Of a DNA stretch of 64,000 nucleotides, positions 2,176 to 26,197 are shown piece after piece (the first letter of the stretch is position 1; every line of letters starts with the position of its first letter). Where the stretch lies: positions 161,021 through 225,020 of the forward strand of contig JAJDYR010000022.1 in NCBI GenBank assembly GCA_022825065.1. Direction: 5' to 3'. The notes under the pieces were generated by a model, which was not told the origin of the DNA, did no database searches, and saw only the letters and a list, made by a program, of their open reading frames with translations. Source of the stretch: a bacterium. GTDB taxonomy: Bacteria; UBA8248. A program made the position numbers and the translations under genes.

Positions 2176-3264
2176 CTAATGCCCCTCCCCCAAGGGTAAT
2201 TGAACGGCCTCTCCCGTCTGGGAAGACAATTCCATCGCGATCGTCACCTCCAGGGTTTGGCGCGCATCCTCAGCCGTGGCGTGCGTTGTCGGTCTTCCAT
2301 TGATCACATGATCAAGCCAGCTTCTTGTTTCATCACCCAGCGGGCCCCAATAATCACCCGCTGCCCAGTCACCAGGGGTCGTGCTGCTCAAAAATGCCGT
2401 GTTGATGTGATGGTCCGGTATATATGTGTGCGGAATCCCCTTGTCGGTGTACAGCATCTCATCCTTGTGGTCTTCATCAAGCATCAAAACGCCGTCCGTA
2501 CCGTAAATCTCCATCCTCACACTCTGGCCCAGCGCCGGGTATTTCGCAGGCAGGGCATAAAAAACACCCAAATTCATCACAGCCCCGTTATCGAAAGTGA
2601 CGATAGACCAGGTGACATCGTTCGCCGAATACCCGTGTTCTTTATAGATTTTCCCGTTTCCCCGGGCGACAACTTCCACCGGTCGATGACCTTCCATGAA
2701 CCAGCAGGCCATATCCACCCAATACGTGAGCACGTCGAGCACAGGCGTTGCGTGGGGGGAGCGCTTCAGGATCTGGAGCCCCTGGGCGCGGGTGTTACAG
2801 GTTCGTCCCGTGCCTGCGAGAATCTCCCCGAGTCTCCCTTGAATAATTTGCTCTTTCGCCATCTGGTAGCGACGTTTGAATCGTTGGGCATAACCTACCC
2901 TGAGTTCAGTACCTGTCCTCTCGGCAACCGAGAGTATCCGGTCGGCATCCTCCAATGTCAGGGAGATCGGTTTTTCCACCAGCACAGGCTTGCCTAATTC
3001 CAGGGCATGGATGATGGAATCGGCGTGATCATGTTCGGGCGTGGATACGATGACCGTCGTCACTTCGGGGTGTTCAATCACTTCGTCATTTCTGCCGGTA
3101 GCGAGTTGGGCGCCTACCTGCTCCCCCAATTCTTTCGCCCGGCCCTGGTCGATGTCGGAAACCGCCAAAAATTCAAGAGACGGATGATGTGAAACCAAAT
3201 TCGCCCGCAGGGTTCCTATTCTGCCGGAACCAACAACACCTACTCCCAATGACTTTTTGTTCAT
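2176..3264 (-). CDS. Gfo/Idh/MocA family oxidoreductase
   Basis: N-terminal GVVGSGRIGTLRA Rossmann motif and VLVEKPISLTLEDAD motif. Confidence 0.9.
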   Translation of the reverse strand: MNKKSLGVGVVGSGRIGTLRANLVSHHPSLEFLAVSDIDQGRAKELGEQVGAQLATGRNDEVIEHPEVTTVIVSTPEHDHADSIIHALELGKPVLVEKPISLTLEDADRILSVAERTGTELRVGYAQRFKRRYQMAKEQIIQGRLGEILAGTGRTCNTRAQGLQILKRSPHATPVLDVLTYWVDMACWFMEGHRPVEVVARGNGKIYKEHGYSANDVTWSIVTFDNGAVMNLGVFYALPAKYPALGQSVRMEIYGTDGVLMLDEDHKDEMLYTDKGIPHTYIPDHHINTAFLSSTTPGDWAAGDYWGPLGDETRSWLDHVINGRPTTHATAEDARQTLEVTIAMELSSQTGEAVQLPLGEGH

Positions 3265-3352
3265 TTTGACCCTCTGGATATTCTTGAAGAGTAATCTCGT
3301 GACACAAGCTCACGAAGAAACACGCCGCTTCTCTTCAGCAATAGGAACAAAT

Positions 3353-3382
3353 CAAAAAAAACCGGCCTCAAAGGAGACCGGT
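3353..3382 (-). terminator. Rho-independent terminator downstream of pnp
   Basis: Reverse strand accggtctc-cttt-gaggccggt (9-bp stem with one GU) followed by a T-run. Confidence 0.8.
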
Positions 3383-3405
3383 GCATACATCATCATTTGG
3401 TTTCA

Positions 3406-5541
3406 TCAGGTCACGGGCGCATAAAATTGCTTCCATTCTTCGGGCAACTCTTCTTCTGTCACATCTTTCATCGAGAGGCGAATTCTCCCATTTCCTTCCA
3501 CTTCGATGCATTTCACCAAAACCTTCTGGCCTTCTTTCAAGACATCACTCACTGAACCGATTCTCTTCTTGGCAATCATGCTGATATGGCAAAGGCCATC
3601 CGTTCCAGGGAATATTTCAACGAATGCTCCAAAATCCATGATCTTTCTGACTGTACCATAGTAAACCGTGCCCTTTTCGGGTTCCTGAGTCAGCTCACGA
3701 ATGATCTCAATGGCCCTAAGAGCTGCCGCCTCATCGGTGGAGGAAATGAAGATTGTTCCATCATCTTCAATATCTACATCCGCCCCCGTCTCCTCGACGA
3801 TTCCGCGAATCACCTTTCCGCCAGGCCCAATCACATCCCTCACACGATCTTTCGAGACCTGTATCGTCATAATCCTCGGCGCGTAGGGAGAAATCTCTTC
3901 GCTAGGCTGGGAAATCACTTTATCCATCTGCTCGAGCACGTGCATTCTCGCATCGTTGGCCTGCGCCAAAGCATCTCTCACGAGGCTCAATTGCAATCCT
4001 TTGATCTTGATATCCATTTGAAGAGCAGTAATGCCATGACGCGTACCACCGACCTTGAAGTCCATATCTCCCAGATGATCTTCCAATCCAAGGATATCCG
4101 TCAGTATTGCTGTTCTTCCTGTAGATTCTTCACTGATCAATCCCATGGCAATGCCGGCCACAGGAGATGTTATCGGTACGCCCGCGCTCATCAAGGCCAG
4201 GCTGGCGCCACAGATGCTCGCCATGGATGAACTGCCATTGCTCTCCGTGATGTCTGAAACTACCCGGATTGTATAGGGAAAATCTTCCTGCTCCGGCAAT
4301 ATCGCCTGCACTGCCCGAGATGCCAGCGCGCCGTGGCCGATTTCGCGGCGACCCGGGCCGCGGTTTGGTTTCGCTTCCCCAACGCTAAATCCGGGGAAAT
4401 TATAGTGCAGCAGAAAAGTCCTGTCGGCTTTCCCGTCCAGCGTGTCTATCAATTGGGCCTCGGAGGCAGTGCCAAGCGTCACCGTCACCAACGCCTGCGT
4501 CTCACCTCGCGTGAACAATGCGCTGCCATGGGGCCTGGCAAGGGGCGACATTCTAATGGTAATCGGCCGAACATCACGAAGCCCCCGACCATCCGAACGT
4601 TTTCCCTCATCTAAAATCAAACCCCGGAAAACTTCTTTTTCGATTTTGCCAAAATAATCCGAGACAACTCCCTTATCCACAGACTCTTCCTCGTCTGCGC
4701 AAAGGGTATCGACCGCAGCAGCTTTCGCCTCATCGATTGCGTTATATTGTCCCGCTTTGTCGTGAATCTCTGCAGCCGCTTGTAGTTTGGGAACTACAAT
4801 TTCACGTACCTTCCCCATTAGTTCCGCATCTTCTTCCTCAGGCTCGACTACACGTTTGGTTTTTCCGCATTCCGCCCGAAGTTCATCCTGCATAGCGCAC
4901 AACTCTTGAATCACAGAATGGCCTTGCTCAAACGCTTCCATGTAAACGTCTTCGGAAACTTCAAAGCTGCCGGCTTCCACCATGACTATCGCGTCCGAAG
5001 TTCCAGCCATCACACAATTCAGATCGCTGTCGATTTGCTGTTCGACCGTCGGATTGACAATAATTTCGCCGTCAATTCGCCCGACGCGAACAGCACCGAT
5101 AGGACCGGAGAATGGGATATCCGAAATGTGGAGAGCGGCGGAAGTTCCATTGATTGCCAAAATGTCGGAGTCATTCAACTTGTCGTAAGACATGACCATG
5201 ACCTGAATCATCGTCTCACAACGAAATTCCTTCGGGAAAAGAGGACGGATAGGCCTATCGATTAAACGACAAGTTAATGTTTCCCTCTCGCCAGGTTTTG
5301 CCTCGCGCCGGAAAAAATTGCCGGGAATAATTCCTGCGGCGTAGAAAAACTCTCGGTAATCAACTGTAAGGGGGAAAAAATCCACGCCCTCACGTGTAGA
5401 ATGCGAAGCGCAAGCCGTACACAGCACACTGGTCTCACCATAATGCATCATTACGGCGCCACCGGCTTGCTTGGCGATCTCACCTGTTTCAAAGGCAAGA
5501 GTATAACCATTGATGGATATGTCTTTTCGATACGGTGGCAT
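3406..5541 (-). CDS. pnp: Polynucleotide phosphorylase
   Basis: Full-length PNPase with two RNase PH domains, KH (VIGPGGKVIRGI) and S1 domains. Confidence 0.98.
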   Translation of the reverse strand: MPPYRKDISINGYTLAFETGEIAKQAGGAVMMHYGETSVLCTACASHSTREGVDFFPLTVDYREFFYAAGIIPGNFFRREAKPGERETLTCRLIDRPIRPLFPKEFRCETMIQVMVMSYDKLNDSDILAINGTSAALHISDIPFSGPIGAVRVGRIDGEIIVNPTVEQQIDSDLNCVMAGTSDAIVMVEAGSFEVSEDVYMEAFEQGHSVIQELCAMQDELRAECGKTKRVVEPEEEDAELMGKVREIVVPKLQAAAEIHDKAGQYNAIDEAKAAAVDTLCADEEESVDKGVVSDYFGKIEKEVFRGLILDEGKRSDGRGLRDVRPITIRMSPLARPHGSALFTRGETQALVTVTLGTASEAQLIDTLDGKADRTFLLHYNFPGFSVGEAKPNRGPGRREIGHGALASRAVQAILPEQEDFPYTIRVVSDITESNGSSSMASICGASLALMSAGVPITSPVAGIAMGLISEESTGRTAILTDILGLEDHLGDMDFKVGGTRHGITALQMDIKIKGLQLSLVRDALAQANDARMHVLEQMDKVISQPSEEISPYAPRIMTIQVSKDRVRDVIGPGGKVIRGIVEETGADVDIEDDGTIFISSTDEAAALRAIEIIRELTQEPEKGTVYYGTVRKIMDFGAFVEIFPGTDGLCHISMIAKKRIGSVSDVLKEGQKVLVKCIEVEGNGRIRLSMKDVTEEELPEEWKQFYAPVT

Positions 5542-5970: not shown

Positions 5971-6900
5971 CTATGTGACAAATACTTTTTCAGGCGCCAC
6001 AAACCCTTGGTTGCGTTTTTGTTTCCTTTCATGGACCGTCTTCCCGACCGCCAATAACTCTCCCGGTCCATTCAGCATACGGACGCGGGTATCTACGGGC
6101 AAATCAACAACTTGTTGAACATCTTCAAACCTGACTACCGCACCATTCAATACCCGCACCTCCGCACTGGGATGCACATAGACGGCAGGCAAATGTGCAA
6201 GCGCCTGCGCCGGACTCATCAGAATGTCCTGAAGGCGTTTTTCCTGCAAGTGGCGATGAACATCCTGGATAGAAACGGAATCTGACAGCTCAAACGGACC
6301 CAAAGCAGTCCGCGTAAGGGCCTGCAAACATCCACCGGACCCTTGATTGGCGCCAATATCATGACAAATTGAACGAATATATGTTCCCCGAGAGCATGTG
6401 ACATCAAAGGTAAGTTGTGGGCCATCCATACCAATCGCCTTGATCCTAAATACTTCAATTTGGCGCTTTTCTCTTTCAACTTCCTTGCCAGAACGCGCTA
6501 ATTCATGCAGGCGCTTTCCATTGGCCTTCAATGCAGAATACATCGGAGGTACCTGCATTGTTTTTCCCAATATCCCACTTAAAAGCTCTTGCGCTCGAGA
6601 AAGTGAAATATCACCCGGCTCAGCTTCAGCCAGTAATTTCCCCGTAATGTCCTGCGTATCTGTCACTCGTCCAAACAACATGACAGCCCGATACGTTTTC
6701 TTGCACTCTAAAAAATATGAGAACAATTTTGTCGAATTACCAATACAAATCGGCAAAACTCCTTCGGCCATGGGGTCAAGCGTACCCGCATGCCCGACTT
6801 TTGGTTTTCCGGGAAGCAGCTTTCTCACTTCATCAACCATATCATGTGAGGTAGGACCGTGTTTTTTCTTCAGATTCAAAACACCCGAGAGTTCCAACAT
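5971..6900 (-). CDS. truB: tRNA pseudouridine(55) synthase TruB
   Basis: GVLNLKKKHGPTSHDMV, KVGHAGTLDPMAEGVLPI; start chosen at MLELSG (6900) rather than ORF start 7005, which overlaps rbfA. Confidence 0.95.
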   Translation of the reverse strand: MLELSGVLNLKKKHGPTSHDMVDEVRKLLPGKPKVGHAGTLDPMAEGVLPICIGNSTKLFSYFLECKKTYRAVMLFGRVTDTQDITGKLLAEAEPGDISLSRAQELLSGILGKTMQVPPMYSALKANGKRLHELARSGKEVEREKRQIEVFRIKAIGMDGPQLTFDVTCSRGTYIRSICHDIGANQGSGGCLQALTRTALGPFELSDSVSIQDVHRHLQEKRLQDILMSPAQALAHLPAVYVHPSAEVRVLNGAVVRFEDVQQVVDLPVDTRVRMLNGPGELLAVGKTVHERKQKRNQGFVAPEKVFVT

Positions 6901-18613: not shown

Positions 18614-18949
18614 ATGACGCAGGTAGACGACGCGCTCCTCCGGCGTATGGTCGAAACCATCGTGGACGAGGTGGATCCCGAACAGGTGATTCTTTTCGGC
18701 TCACGCGCGCGAGGCGACGCGGCGGCGGATTCCGACGTGGATTTCGTAGTGGTAGAGTCGGCCCCGTTTGGAAAAAGTCGTGACAGGCGAGCAGAAGCGA
18801 CGCGTCTTTGGCGCGCACTGGCGGACTTCGAAGTCTCCAAGGACATTCTGCTCTTCAGCCGTGATGAAGTGGAATACTGGCGCGATTCACTGAACCACGT
18901 CCTGGCGCGCGCCCTGCGTGAAGGCGAAGTTCTGTATGAGCGATCTTAA
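18614..18949 (+). CDS. Minimal nucleotidyltransferase (MNT) antitoxin
   Basis: GSRARGDAAADSDVDFVVV matches the GSx10DxD nucleotidyltransferase motif. Confidence 0.88.
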   Translation: MTQVDDALLRRMVETIVDEVDPEQVILFGSRARGDAAADSDVDFVVVESAPFGKSRDRRAEATRLWRALADFEVSKDILLFSRDEVEYWRDSLNHVLARALREGEVLYERS

Positions 18950-19343
18950 GCAGGCTCACGTTCTCCTGGAGGCGGCGGAACGGGATTTTAGTGCCCTTCG
19001 CGGAATGGAAGATGCAACCATCTTCGCCGATGAGATATTCGGCTTTCATGTGCAACAGGCGTTGGAGAAGTCGTTAAAGGCATTACTTGCTCTAGTTGGT
19101 GAAACATACCCTGCTACTCACGATCTGGCGAGGCTGATCAATTTGCTCAAAGAGCACGACGCAGAAGCGGCACGTTTCAATGAATTGGTGGAATATACCT
19201 CGTATGCCGTTCAGTTTCGTTACGGCGCCAGCCACGCTGGCGCAATGCCGCTTGCCCGGGACATCGCTTTAGAGCGCGTGGAAGTGTTGATTAATGAAGT
19301 TCGGCGGCGCTTAGAAAGCACAGAGCACTCTAAAGAGAATTGA
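18936..19343 (+). CDS. HEPN domain toxin, partner of MNT
   Basis: FGFHVQQALEKSLKALLALVGETYPATHDLARLINLL; RYGASH fits the R-x4-6-H HEPN motif; overlaps the MNT gene. Confidence 0.88.
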   Translation: MSDLKQAHVLLEAAERDFSALRGMEDATIFADEIFGFHVQQALEKSLKALLALVGETYPATHDLARLINLLKEHDAEAARFNELVEYTSYAVQFRYGASHAGAMPLARDIALERVEVLINEVRRRLESTEHSKEN

Positions 19344-20150: not shown

Positions 20151-20330
20151 CTATGGCAAAGGTATCGGCTCCCCTTCCTCCTCCAGAACTTCGATATAGC
20201 CCTCGATGGCTTCCCGGATATTTTGAACGGCTTCTTTCCTGGATTGACCCTGGCTGATGCAGCCGGGCAGGCTGGGGCACTCCGCGACCCAGAAACCATC
20301 CTCTCCGGGTTTGATGATGATTGGTTTCAT
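20151..20330 (-). CDS. HicB-like (UPF0150) small protein
   Basis: 59 aa, below ORF-track cutoff: MKPIIIKPGEDGFWVAECPSLPGCISQGQSRKEAVQNIREAIEGYIEVLEEEGEPIPLP; 4-nt overlap with the upstream endonuclease gene. Confidence 0.75.
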   Translation of the reverse strand: MKPIIIKPGEDGFWVAECPSLPGCISQGQSRKEAVQNIREAIEGYIEVLEEEGEPIPLP

Positions 20331-20938
20331 GGAGCGACGCCCACGAGCACCAGAGGAACCGCGGGAACCCCGCGTCCCTGCCGCAAAACGTTCAGCAAAT
20401 CCCGTTCATAGTAGGCGACGCCGGAGGACATCTCCCGTTCCAGTTCCTTCATGGGGAGTATCTCCACCCCTACGTCGATGATGTCGGAAACATAGAAGCT
20501 GAGATGCTTCACGAACAGGTCATGCGCGACGAAGGCGTATTTGCCGAACTGAACCTCCACCGCGACGCGCTCTTTCACGAAATCCGTCTGGTTGTAGGAC
20601 ATGATGGGTTCGTATCCCGCTTGCTCGATGGCGCGTTTCTGCTCGCTTTCCGGCAGGCCGTATATGCCGCGCATGAGCTTCTCATCCGCCGTAAGCCAGA
20701 AAGTGCTCCTGCGCTCGCTCCAGCCGCGCACCTTGAGGCCGTCCTTGAACGCGCGGTTCATGTCGGCGGGCGAGAACAACACTTTCCCGGGCATGGTCTT
20801 TTCTCTGGAAACCTTTGTCCGGCAAGACGCCGCATCGACTGCCGCGATGACCTCCTTCACCTCATCCCACAATTGCTTGCGGTGGACGAGCAGGTATTCC
20901 TCGCCGTTCAGATGCGAATACTTGGCTTCGATGCGCAC
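20327..20938 (-). CDS. Type II restriction endonuclease, BstYI/BglII-like
   Basis: D-x8-EVQ catalytic arrangement (NQTDFVKERVAVEVQFGKYAFVAHDLFVKHLSFY); adjacent to DNA methyltransferase. Confidence 0.82.
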   Translation of the reverse strand: MRIEAKYSHLNGEEYLLVHRKQLWDEVKEVIAAVDAASCRTKVSREKTMPGKVLFSPADMNRAFKDGLKVRGWSERRSTFWLTADEKLMRGIYGLPESEQKRAIEQAGYEPIMSYNQTDFVKERVAVEVQFGKYAFVAHDLFVKHLSFYVSDIIDVGVEILPMKELEREMSSGVAYYERDLLNVLRQGRGVPAVPLVLVGVAP

Positions 20939-21852
20939 TAATGCCCGCCGTTTGGTTTCGCGGGGTCGTAGATGGGCTTACCCATCGGGCGCGTTTTGAG
21001 GGTTCCCGCATAAAAGCGGCGCACCCTGTCCAGCGCGATGTCCACGTATTCGGAAACGACGTCACAGCCATACGCCGTTCTCCCGTGCATGAGCGCGGCG
21101 ATGACGGCGGAGCCGACGCCCATGTAGGGGTCGAACACCGCGTCGCCCGCATCCGTCATGGAGAGAACGAGGCGCTCTACGAGTTCGACGGGGAACTGGC
21201 AGGGATGAATCGTTTTTTCCGGGTGATTGCTCTTCACGTTCGGGAAAGTCCACACGTCGCTCGGGTTCTTGCCCTTGGGGTTCCCCGAGAGCTTGCCGAT
21301 GTTCGGTCCCTTGAAGTGTTTCTTGCCCGGATATTTCGACGGAACCCGTATCGGGTCGAGATTCCAGGTGTAATCGTCTCCCCTCGTCCACCAGTTGATC
21401 GTTTCGTATCGGCCCGAGAGCCGCTTGGTGCAGTGAAGGCCGTGGCCGAAACTCCAGACGATTCGGTTGCGGAGCTTGAGGCCCTGCGCCTGAAAGACGG
21501 GATAGAGAACCGCGTCGAGCGGGATGATCTCTCCGTTTTCCACATAATTGCCGACCTGCCAGCAGATGGAGCCTTTAGGATGCAACAGCCGAACGCACTC
21601 GCGAATCACACGCTCCTGCGCCTCGACGTAAGCGTCGAGCGGAGTTCTCGATTCGTATTCTTTTCCGAGGTTGTAAGGGGGCGAGGTGACGATGAGCTTC
21701 ATCCTCTCGTCGGGAAGCTCGCTCATGAAAACGAGGTTGTCCGCGCACGCGAGGACGGGTTGGCTTTTGGGTTTTTCTCGCTCCAATCGAGGGAGCATGT
21801 CCTGCACCGGCTGCCGCGCCGTGCTTTCAACACTCGAAGCGGCGTTGGTCAT
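20938..21852 (-). CDS. DNA methyltransferase, beta class (N6-adenine or N4-cytosine), DpnA-like
   Basis: Motif IV TSPPYNLGKEYE N-terminal, motif I VFDPYMGVGSAVIAAL C-terminal. Confidence 0.92.
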   Translation of the reverse strand: MTNAASSVESTARQPVQDMLPRLEREKPKSQPVLACADNLVFMSELPDERMKLIVTSPPYNLGKEYESRTPLDAYVEAQERVIRECVRLLHPKGSICWQVGNYVENGEIIPLDAVLYPVFQAQGLKLRNRIVWSFGHGLHCTKRLSGRYETINWWTRGDDYTWNLDPIRVPSKYPGKKHFKGPNIGKLSGNPKGKNPSDVWTFPNVKSNHPEKTIHPCQFPVELVERLVLSMTDAGDAVFDPYMGVGSAVIAALMHGRTAYGCDVVSEYVDIALDRVRRFYAGTLKTRPMGKPIYDPAKPNGGH

Positions 21853-22019
21853 CCGATTTCCCCACGGGCGGCAATGTCTGATTCTGATCGTGCGCCATCA
21901 TACAACCCGCTAAAGCGGTTCTCAAGTCAAAGAGCATTTCATATTCCCGCGCGACCTTCCCTTGCTGAGCAAATCGCCTTCCGGAAAGCACGAGGAGAAA
22001 ACGATAACAGTGGACATGC

Positions 22020-23537
22020 CTAGATGTAATGCCTAAAAGGTAAAGGTGGCAGGTTCGGAACGGGTGCAGCAGTTAGAATTTCTCCTACAGCATCTGCAAA
22101 CCTAAGGGTAACTGGCTGTCCGTCTGCGAATTGACAAGCGTTGAAGTTAATCTTGGTTAGACCCATGATATCCTTCATCACTCTGAGCAGATCGGCTTCA
22201 CCTTTATGGATATCGACAAGCAATGGATTAGGGACTTCCCAACCAGGGTAGGTATCAAGCCGAGGTATGAATCCTTTGGTCCAAAGGTATCCTTTCCGTT
22301 TTGTCGAGAGATATACAGTACCACGAAGCACGGGCATTTTACCCACTCTATAAAGTTTCAATTCAGTGGTCGGGCGGATACGTACCCCGACTAGGTTTGT
22401 CTCGTTTGGAACAACTGTTTTGAACCCTTCCCACTCATCATCGTCAAATCGCGTCTTGCCGTGGATGAAAAGTTCTGTGGGCGGCTTCCCATGGAGATTC
22501 TGATATGCTTCCACTACTAGGCTCATCAAATCAGAGGCTTTCTCCTTGTTTAGGTGATATTCCTTAAGTGTCTTTGAATACCAAGGACCGACTGCACCCC
22601 GAAAAACAACACCATCGCCCGAGTCTAAAAACATTTGGGCACCACAACAAGCATTGCCAGCGTTTGGATCAGTGCCATCCATTTTATAGACTAACCCTAC
22701 ATAGCAAACCCCTGGGCGGACCGACGCAAGTTTCCATGGCTTGCCACTAGCCTTAAAAAACGCTGTTGTGCAGAGGTTCCAAGCGACTGTGGCAGGATCT
22801 TGAAGCTTCCGAATTGGACGCCCATTTCTGGCAAATTGATCAGGAGCAAGCGTCGTCTCGCGAACAATCTGAAGAACCACCTTTTCATCCAAAAGTCGGG
22901 CTTTCATCTGATGGTGAAAATTCAGATCGTAGCGGTAAATTTCTGCGGCTTGCTGATCTTCTGGGAAAAGCGCACCTTCTCGGAGAATCTTCGCCGCGAA
23001 TTTAGGAGAGACTGACCGGTTTCCGCGAATACGTTCCTCTCTAGGCACAACCGACTTAGGTCTACCGTACCGATGAACATCTTCCGGTATCACTACAAAC
23101 CACACGGCAGGCGGGGCTTCTTCTTGACGTAAATGTTTTCGTATAGGTTCCTCGAAAAGAGCAACTGTTTTATAAATTGCTTCGTGTCGATCCGTGAGTC
23201 GGATCGAATCACGGACAGCATCACCTGAGACAGTAAGTTCAACGAGGGGAACTTCTGGCCATTTAGTACCAAAAACCGCCTGGAATCCGGGCCAACTGGC
23301 ATGGTGCGGTTTATCTGGGTTTTGGGGTGGAATGTAAGAACGAATGGTTTTTGTCCATTCACGAAAATAGTTCAGGCCATCCTGTGTTCCAATGACACCG
23401 ATACGCATTTCAGCAGGATTGGCTATGTCATCTAATGGTCCAAACAAGAAAAGGCCGTCTTTCGGATGCTCCAACTCTTGGTCGTATCGGAACCCTAATC
23501 TTGGTTCTTCAATGTGTTGAAGCAGAGAGTTTGTCAT
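22020..23537 (-). CDS. Short prokaryotic Argonaute (MID-PIWI), SPARTA partner
   Basis: 505 aa short pAgo with C-terminal PIWI-like region ...RGTVYLSTKRKGYLWTKGFIPRLDTYPGWEVPNPLLVDIHKGEADLLRVMKDIMGLTKINFNACQFADGQPVTLRFADAVGEIL; 4-nt overlap with TIR-APAZ gene. Confidence 0.9.
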   Translation of the reverse strand: MTNSLLQHIEEPRLGFRYDQELEHPKDGLFLFGPLDDIANPAEMRIGVIGTQDGLNYFREWTKTIRSYIPPQNPDKPHHASWPGFQAVFGTKWPEVPLVELTVSGDAVRDSIRLTDRHEAIYKTVALFEEPIRKHLRQEEAPPAVWFVVIPEDVHRYGRPKSVVPREERIRGNRSVSPKFAAKILREGALFPEDQQAAEIYRYDLNFHHQMKARLLDEKVVLQIVRETTLAPDQFARNGRPIRKLQDPATVAWNLCTTAFFKASGKPWKLASVRPGVCYVGLVYKMDGTDPNAGNACCGAQMFLDSGDGVVFRGAVGPWYSKTLKEYHLNKEKASDLMSLVVEAYQNLHGKPPTELFIHGKTRFDDDEWEGFKTVVPNETNLVGVRIRPTTELKLYRVGKMPVLRGTVYLSTKRKGYLWTKGFIPRLDTYPGWEVPNPLLVDIHKGEADLLRVMKDIMGLTKINFNACQFADGQPVTLRFADAVGEILTAAPVPNLPPLPFRHYI

Positions 23538-24970
23538 GAAGCCTCTCCACTATGGACATCTTCATCTTCAAATACATATCCAAAATCATTTTCGTCTGAA
23601 TCACCATCAAAATCATCGAGCGCATCAGCCTCTGTTTCGCCTTCTATATGATCTTCTTCAGTAGCAGGGACCGGAACATCACCGACAATGGAAAGGGGGG
23701 CATCAAAACTCATTGGAGAGGCATCTATGATGGCCTCGGCGTCGCCACCAAGGGGCAAGATGAATTCCCCTTTTCCATTCGACATAAAAGTCACGAAAGC
23801 GCGAAGCAGGTCACGCCAGCGAGCATTCCACCAATTTTTACAGAAACTCCTCCGTAAACTAAAGGCTCTAGCTTTGCTATCAAGTGGGGTTTTCCCATCT
23901 TCCGTAAAAACAACGTGAGGACGCAATGCAACATGACGTGGGTCAGCGAGATTAACCTTTTCTGATACTGCAAAGTGCCAATAGACTTCTCTTTTCTCAC
24001 TTCGGCCAACCAACCGACGTCTCCTTTTCTTCCCATTTTCGTCTTGGAAAGTAATTATATTACCTTCAATCAAATTGAGGGGAACAAACCATGCACTTCC
24101 ATGTGCAAATTCACAAAACACTAAACCTTGACTCTTCACAAATTGTTCCCACGACTGGCGGAGAAGTCCGGTTACCATGTTTCGGGCTTCCCACCACGAT
24201 ATTTGTACCCCGTTAGGTATTTGACCGCTTAGAAGTCGCTCCAGTGGAATATGACCAACATTCTCAAGTGAAATATCAGGAGTATCAATTTGAAGCGTTG
24301 TCGTTTCAGCAAAGCCAACGACCATATCCTTATGCAAAGTGGTCGGACTTTGAAACCTATCGGGCGCAAGTTTCATAGATTTTTGTGAGGCGTTGAAACG
24401 GGAAAAATTGATGTGAGAGGGTAAAGAGCTAATCTGAAACCAGTTGGAGAATACTAGCTCCGGTGCATCGCAGATAGAGGTGCTTTGTCTTAGCATATAC
24501 TTCTGCCAAATAGCCAAGTCCTCTCCAAAATTGCTTATCGATTGTGGAACCTGAGTATCTTCAAAAATTTTCAGAAGTTCGCTGAATCCGTCCGCCCAAT
24601 TAGATGAGAAATTGATCGCATTTAGGCGTATCAATTGCTCGGGAAAATCGGAGAACGGGAGATCATCAAGGCGGACGGGTATAATAAATTGATCTTTCTT
24701 GAGTTTGCGGCCTGTGTTTACAGAAAGAGCAATTTCATTGAGGACACCTTCTTTCGAATAAGATGCACGAGATAAGGCAACAATGACTATGGCAGCTTGT
24801 TCCCTAATCACCGCACCAATATCTCGCCAGAATGCCTCACCGCCCTTCAGATTCAACACATCAGTCCATACTTCATAGCCAGCAGCAGCTAATCGCGCAC
24901 CAAGCCAAGAGGCAAATTCATTGTCCTCAGGGTTGGCATGGCTGATGAAAACAATGCGACGTTTTTCCAT
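23534..24970 (-). CDS. TIR-APAZ protein (SPARTA NADase subunit)
   Basis: N-terminal TIR: RIVFISHANPEDNEFASWLGARLAAAGYEVWTDVLNLKGGEAFWRDI...SKEGVLNEIALS; APAZ-length C-terminal region; co-operonic with short pAgo; acidic C-tail. Confidence 0.9.
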   Translation of the reverse strand: MEKRRIVFISHANPEDNEFASWLGARLAAAGYEVWTDVLNLKGGEAFWRDIGAVIREQAAIVIVALSRASYSKEGVLNEIALSVNTGRKLKKDQFIIPVRLDDLPFSDFPEQLIRLNAINFSSNWADGFSELLKIFEDTQVPQSISNFGEDLAIWQKYMLRQSTSICDAPELVFSNWFQISSLPSHINFSRFNASQKSMKLAPDRFQSPTTLHKDMVVGFAETTTLQIDTPDISLENVGHIPLERLLSGQIPNGVQISWWEARNMVTGLLRQSWEQFVKSQGLVFCEFAHGSAWFVPLNLIEGNIITFQDENGKKRRRRLVGRSEKREVYWHFAVSEKVNLADPRHVALRPHVVFTEDGKTPLDSKARAFSLRRSFCKNWWNARWRDLLRAFVTFMSNGKGEFILPLGGDAEAIIDASPMSFDAPLSIVGDVPVPATEEDHIEGETEADALDDFDGDSDENDFGYVFEDEDVHSGEAS

Positions 24971-25032
24971 CCCGTTTTCCTCTTTGAAGCATGCGACGAG
25001 AGCACTCGACCCAAAGTATTTTGGCTAATACG

Positions 25033-25893
25033 CTAACCGTTTACACTAGCCAATATCCACTCCATACCCCGCACAGCCAAGACCTCTCGCGCAGGAGATC
25101 GGTCGCCCGTGCAACTGATCCGGCGCGGGCCCTGGAGAAACGTCAAGGCGAATCCGTTTTTCTCATACAGTTCCACGATTCTACCCGTCGCCTGGTTCGA
25201 GAGGACGACGGGGCCTCCGTGCGCGGCGAGAAACTCCGCGAGGCGCACCTGATCCGCCCAGGAGAAATCCTCCTTTGCGTATTTCGTGAACTGGACGTCA
25301 TAGGGGGGATCCGCGTAGATGAAATCACTGGGCTCGATAGGGAGCGTCTCAAAATCCCGGCGCAGAAACTCCCAGCCTTCGAAGACCTCCCGGTAGGCCG
25401 AGAAATCTCGCACGTAGTTGATTCGCTTGTAGCGTCCGAAGGGGACGTTGAACTCTCCCTTGCCGTTGAAGCGGCATAGTCCGTTATAGCCCGTGCGGTT
25501 GAGATAGTAGAAAAGCTCCGCCGCTTGCTTTTGGTGTCCTCGTCCGCTCATGAGAAGCGCGTTGAACCGCTCCCTGTGGGCGTAGTAAATCTCCGCGTCG
25601 TTTCGCATGTCGAGCCGGGCGTTCGAGAGGCCCTTCTTCAGCCAGGCGTAGAAGTTCATGAGCGGGGCGTTGATGTCGTTCAAAAGTGCGCGTTCGGGGC
25701 GGAGGCCGAGTGCGACCGCCAGCCCGCCGCAGAAAGGCTCCACGAGCCGTCGGTCGCTAAAGTTTTTCCAATACGCCTGAATATGCGGGACGAGCCACCG
25801 CTTGCCGCCGGCCCACTTGAGGGGGGGCGTCAATTTTTCATCACTGGTTGTGAGGTTCGGTTTGCGAACTTGCGCATTCGTGCTTGTTGCCAT
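25033..25893 (-). CDS. Dam-like DNA adenine methyltransferase (D12 class)
   Basis: PPLKWAGGKRWLVPHI, FCGGLAVALGL, FIYADPPYDVQF; start at MATSTNAQ (25893). Confidence 0.93.
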   Translation of the reverse strand: MATSTNAQVRKPNLTTSDEKLTPPLKWAGGKRWLVPHIQAYWKNFSDRRLVEPFCGGLAVALGLRPERALLNDINAPLMNFYAWLKKGLSNARLDMRNDAEIYYAHRERFNALLMSGRGHQKQAAELFYYLNRTGYNGLCRFNGKGEFNVPFGRYKRINYVRDFSAYREVFEGWEFLRRDFETLPIEPSDFIYADPPYDVQFTKYAKEDFSWADQVRLAEFLAAHGGPVVLSNQATGRIVELYEKNGFALTFLQGPRRISCTGDRSPAREVLAVRGMEWILASVNG

Positions 25894-26009
25894 GTGGGTA
25901 TCCGAAACGCTTCGGTGGGCGGATGATGCGGACACCATACCACAACCGGGAGCCTGAGCCATCACTCACTGACGCAGTATAGCGATGGTGCGCCTTGGCC
26001 GGGCGAAGC

Positions 26010-26197
26010 GATTGGGGGTGCTGAAGAAGTCCCCTTGTCAGGGGATAAAGGCAACCCCCCTACCCCCCTTATCAGGGGGGCAAGAAAAATCAAAACCCCC
26101 TCTTCCGGCGGTTGGCGTCGCCTTTTTATACCCCCCTGTCAAGGGGGGGTAGGGGGGGTTGCTCCTTTGAGAAGGGGTTTTTCAGCAATCCCGATTA
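26010..26197. mobile_element. MITE-like palindromic element containing C-rich inverted repeats
   Basis: attgggggtgctgaagaa ... gtttttcagcaatcccgatt ends; inner aacccccctacccccc / gggggggtagggggggtt arms. Confidence 0.55.

Follow-up and report, generated by a model that had tools for sequence, protein, structure and literature searches.

In the stretch of DNA analysed here, 64,000 nucleotides long and called the window below, two genes encoding a TIR-APAZ protein and a short Argonaute (pAgo) sit inside a restriction-modification (R-M) locus at 20327-25965, and all five genes of this locus are on the minus strand (Table 1). The two ORFs form one operon, with an overlap of 4 nt (23534-23537), and both frames are intact and start with ATG. 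An earlier note on this DNA had described such an overlapping pair, with a TIR-led first protein followed by a 505-aa short pAgo devoid of PAZ and N domains, and had recognized in it the architecture of SPARTA systems. This description was borne out in each of its parts: the ORFs, the TIR motif and the pAgo length are as written, and both proteins match solved SPARTA subunits over nearly their full length.

Table 1. Position of the SPARTA genes, their functional regions and the neighbouring genes in the window
Feature	Position	Strand	Evidence
BstYI-like restriction endonuclease, 203 aa	20327..20938	-	PDB 1sdo E 4.7e-86, full length; Pfam Endonuc-BglII 2.7e-35
Beta-class DNA methylase, TSPPYN motif	20938..21852	-	Pfam N6_N4_Mtase 6e-47; PDB RsrI MTase 1e-27
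Promoter-like TTGAGA-N17-TATGAT before the methylase gene, beside the cassette junction	21897..21925	-	Consensus scan; kept in L028
SPARTA cassette, ~3.1 kb, GC about 0.46	21931..25059	.	Absent from same-genus genomes
Short pAgo gene (MID-PIWI), 505 aa	22020..23537	-	PDB and PADLOC matches
TIR-APAZ gene, 478 aa	23534..24970	-	PADLOC and PDB matches
Acidic C-terminal tail of TIR-APAZ, residues 429-478	23537..23686	-	Sequence count
APAZ region, about residues 161-430	23681..24490	-	Alignment to 8fex_A and 8qlo_A; limits per PMC11156904
Catalytic Glu79 codon (E77 in solved SPARTA)	24734..24736	-	Pairwise map to 8fex_A
TIR domain, residues 7-133	24572..24952	-	Pfam TIR_2 8.9e-21
Dam-like D12 adenine methylase	25033..25965	-	Pfam MethyltransfD12 2.9e-43; PDB DpnII M1 2.3e-31

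The first protein was assigned by PADLOC to the model Aga_TIR-PNTD1-PNTD2 (468.6 bits), and its residues 4-458 matched the TIR-APAZ chains of PDB 8qlo, 8fex and 8sp0 with E-values of 1e-65 to 1e-67. The second was assigned to pAgo_I (717 bits) and matched 8ifk_B with an E-value of 1e-139; a Pfam search with this protein gave no match that counts. Since it has 505 aa, and its residues 6-505 align with the 507-aa solved short pAgos, it consists of MID and PIWI only. Pairwise identity to solved SPARTA is 45% for pAgo and 32% for TIR-APAZ, and gene order, domains and lengths are the same as in the solved systems (8ifk, 8fex, 8qlo and 8u7b, with a 507-aa pAgo and a TIR-APAZ of ~450 aa). In comparisons with the nearest relatives, dN/dS was 0.07-0.11 for pAgo and 0.13-0.17 for TIR-APAZ, with dS above 1, indicating that the pair is under purifying selection; these values, together with E-values of 1e-139 and 1e-65, exclude a chance match. 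Single-sequence AlphaFold2 models of both proteins were too poor for use (mean pLDDT 38 and 34), but the assignment can do without a fold comparison, given the sequence matches to solved structures. The gene pair is thus a genuine, apparently intact SPARTA system, a protein pair of known kind, and its pAgo is the only match in this genome to the short-pAgo model.

Individual residues were compared with the solved systems using the numbering of PMC11156904 and PMC10474274, every letter of which agreed with the PDB chains used. The glutamate proposed in the earlier note as the candidate NADase residue, Glu79, aligns with catalytic E77 of the solved TIR-APAZ, for which E77A serves as the catalytic control (PMC10474274). 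In the TIR domain F47, W48, E79 and R115 are kept, with T11 replaced by N13 and Y105 by F106. The pocket of the MID domain for the guide 5'-phosphate keeps H208, K212, N466 and I505, with H155 in place of Y148, and the backbone contacts R226, T229, R243, K285, R363, K394, N437, N464 and R479 are kept, as is W319 of the sensor loop. The positions of the nuclease tetrad of CbAgo (D541/E577/D611/D727) are occupied by V284/Y328/R362/N484 in the 507-aa solved SPARTA pAgo (PMC11156904) and by V283/Y327/K361/D482 in the window pAgo, so the DEDX tetrad is lost, which settles by alignment the check that the earlier note had suggested for PIWI. In the loss of the tetrad and the presence of the guide pocket and the TIR glutamate, the window pair is like solved SPARTA. 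It differs, however, at the pAgo dimer interface, where D37/A39 stand for Q35/Y37, and in the APAZ contacts, four of eight being changed. The acidic tail of TIR-APAZ is also longer than in the solved systems, the last 50 residues containing 20 D/E and not a single K/R, and the locus, unlike theirs, lies inside R-M genes.

It has been described for solved SPARTA that a small guide RNA and complementary ssDNA bring about a tetramer of heterodimers, whose TIR domains hydrolyse NAD(P)+ (PMC10474274, PMC11156904), and that the C-terminal segment of TIR-APAZ is displaced upon target DNA binding (PMC11156904). By analogy with these homologues, the window TIR-APAZ and short pAgo would pair up as a heterodimer that takes a 5'-phosphorylated small guide RNA into the MID pocket, and the guide would pair with complementary single-stranded DNA of a plasmid or phage. 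This pairing would displace the sensor loop of PIWI together with the acidic tail of TIR-APAZ. Four heterodimers would then assemble, and their TIR domains would hydrolyse NAD(P)+, so that the cell would be killed or arrested. The guide type, the oligomerisation, the NADase activity and the abortive outcome are all predicted here from the solved homologues. Judged from its sequence, the two-gene cassette almost certainly carries a functional SPARTA system.

A decayed or inactive SPARTA remnant, retained by hitch-hiking with the R-M genes, could also account for a cassette of foreign composition that is present in one genome of the seven compared within the genus. Moreover, the published residues of the pAgo dimer interface are changed in the window, and mutating Q35/Y37 in the solved system abolishes activity (numbering of PMC11156904 and PMC10474274). 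However, both frames are intact, the residues needed for catalysis and for the guide pocket are retained, and dN/dS in comparisons with relatives stays within 0.07-0.17, and we consider a remnant very improbable.

Relatives of this functional candidate were sought in a single genome for each species, and the best 80 of 463 were kept. TIR-APAZ homology lies directly upstream of pAgo in all of these best 80 of 463, being partial in several loci at contig ends. In the maximum-likelihood tree the window pAgo falls, with support of 100/99, in a clade of six whose other members come from Candidatus Binatia (locus L044, 84% identity) and from four Latescibacterota (L045-L048, 79-81%). These five pairs, with pAgo 79-84% and TIR-APAZ 68-70% identical to those of the window, share DNA similarity with it that ends at the outer limits of the two ORFs. 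The SPARTA of Sphingomonadales, as on the Sphingobium sp. YC-XJ3 plasmid (NZ_CP117472), has the same gene order and a pAgo 70% identical to that of the window; on that plasmid it is flanked by genes for conjugation and by an S8 peptidase/ATPase pair and, unlike the window, has no R-M genes. Of 18 genomes of the window's order, one other than the window's own matched the pAgo model, weakly, and this match is a different and more distant short pAgo. It belongs to congener G008, at about 2599-3969 of the small contig C164 (L034). No relative turned up when viral contigs were scanned with the window pAgo. Horizontal transfer of SPARTA is the simplest reading of this distribution, and the window adds a well-preserved SPARTA whose nearest kin sit in little-studied phyla (Binatota, Latescibacterota).

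Three of the Latescibacterota have a HigA-like HTH (Pfam HTH_3, E about 3e-8) at the N-terminus of TIR-APAZ, a domain that the window TIR-APAZ does not have. The genes concerned are at 5948-8004 in L045, 5960-8004 in L046 and 2492-4201 in L047. In the first two loci, the gene directly upstream of TIR-APAZ encodes a HigB-like toxin, with a match below the Pfam cut-off. This arrangement looks like a toxin-antitoxin-coupled SPARTA variant; a literature search for such a variant found no paper.

The neighbouring genes place the cassette in a site that can be followed within the genus. The 203-aa neighbour aligns over its whole length with BstYI (PDB 1sdo), of the BglII family, and is not part of SPARTA. 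The methylase gene adjacent to it, as BstYI-type R-M requires, is its partner, and the encoded enzyme is probably of m4C type. The GC content of the SPARTA genes is 0.462 vs 0.587-0.593 for the three flanking R-M and Dam genes. In two congeners the site is empty, with 66 bp (G004, L028) and 53 bp (G006, L029) between the homologues of 21926 and 25060. The insert supplies the last ~9 codons of Dam, replacing the original ones, and leaves in place the promoter-like element of the methylase gene, found by a consensus scan whose sites are overall no more frequent than in shuffles. Neither an integrase nor a target duplication was found at the cassette ends, and a search for terminal repeats gave none that convince.

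In two other congeners, G007 (L030) and G009 (L033), the same slot holds a different insert, an ORF of 140 aa whose G009 copy matches Pfam PDDEXK_11 (7.4e-15). This ORF, at 2159-2581 of L033 and about 10105-10545 of L030, overlaps the stop codon of the Dam gene, and its product may serve Dam as a small partner in restriction. SPARTA and the R-M pair are both absent from G005 and G008. The empty sites of ~50-70 bp in two same-genus genomes identify a defence hotspot that gained SPARTA horizontally, and the site is anchored by Dam and has two variable slots. Dam alone, Dam with R-M, Dam with a PD-(D/E)XK nuclease, and Dam with SPARTA and R-M are all found in the genus, giving a clean before/after view of the assembly of a defence locus.

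Two readings give the R-M genes a part in SPARTA function. It could be proposed that SPARTA and the R-M/Dam genes form one cooperating system, in which cuts or the methylation state would supply guides or single-stranded targets. The five genes are on one strand, the cassette is fused to the end of the Dam gene, and each of the six loci in the pAgo clade has R-M genes beside SPARTA, of three unrelated types. In the window these are of BstYI type and in L044 they encode an HNH enzyme and a D12 methylase, whereas in Latescibacterota a Type ISP/IIG enzyme is convergent with the pAgo gene; this enzyme was identified by profile in L046 and is presumed in L045, L047 and L048, where an ORF resembles it in size and position. 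However, among the best 80 of 463 relatives a BstYI-type pair occurs in none and Dam-like similarity, weak, in one (L119). Moreover, the methylase gene is preceded by a promoter-like element of its own, congeners carry R-M without SPARTA, and R-M gene enrichment around pAgos, reported in 2009, is a known general trend (PMC2743648). A single cooperating system is therefore very unlikely.

A narrower proposal, confined to the small clade, is that R-M attack makes ends, single strands or guides that would arm SPARTA, the two acting as first and second lines of defence; to this we give a slim chance. In 51 other SPARTA loci Type I methylases made up 4 of the 102 nearest neighbours, with ~1-2 more of MmeI/Eco57I type, so that R-M adjacency occurs in roughly a tenth of them and is uncommon, not unusual. 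The pattern in the clade was noticed post hoc, and the loci of the four Latescibacterota do not count as independent cases, so it is a lead only. The recurrent linkage fits published defence-island behaviour and is no proof of cooperation. Nevertheless, a SPARTA naturally placed beside a restriction enzyme is a reasonable system for asking whether restriction fragments feed SPARTA. The interest of the locus is in its clean insertion history and this weak lead, rather than in a new mechanism.

The sharp step in composition and the absence from congeners might suggest a chimeric assembly, with the SPARTA of another organism falsely joined to this genome, but the contig is 377 kb long, both flanks are syntenic with congeners and two independent false joins would be needed at one interval of 50-70 bp, which makes this extremely unlikely.

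For the BstYI-like neighbour we infer specificity for RGATCY, of which the window has 17 sites vs 59 by simple expectation. In 204 kb of the window's own contig (the window and L124-L130) 80 sites were observed vs 112 expected, and in 140 kb of congener G007 (L131-L137), which lacks the BstYI-like pair, 48 vs 76. Because the deficit occurs with and without the pair, there is no specific avoidance of RGATCY, and its scarcity was dropped as a sign of R-M activity.

Near the hotspot, at 18918-19343 on the plus strand of the window, there is an ORF with a HEPN domain (Pfam 1.1e-14). The syntenic region of congener locus L033 contains a nucleotidyltransferase-like ORF (6361-6696), which suggests that the two represent an MNT-HEPN toxin-antitoxin pair. 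Just upstream of Dam, at 26035-26160, lie short C/G-rich repeat-like segments and a 15-bp terminator-like hairpin, and pieces of this repeat-like segment recur near the hotspot in congeners.
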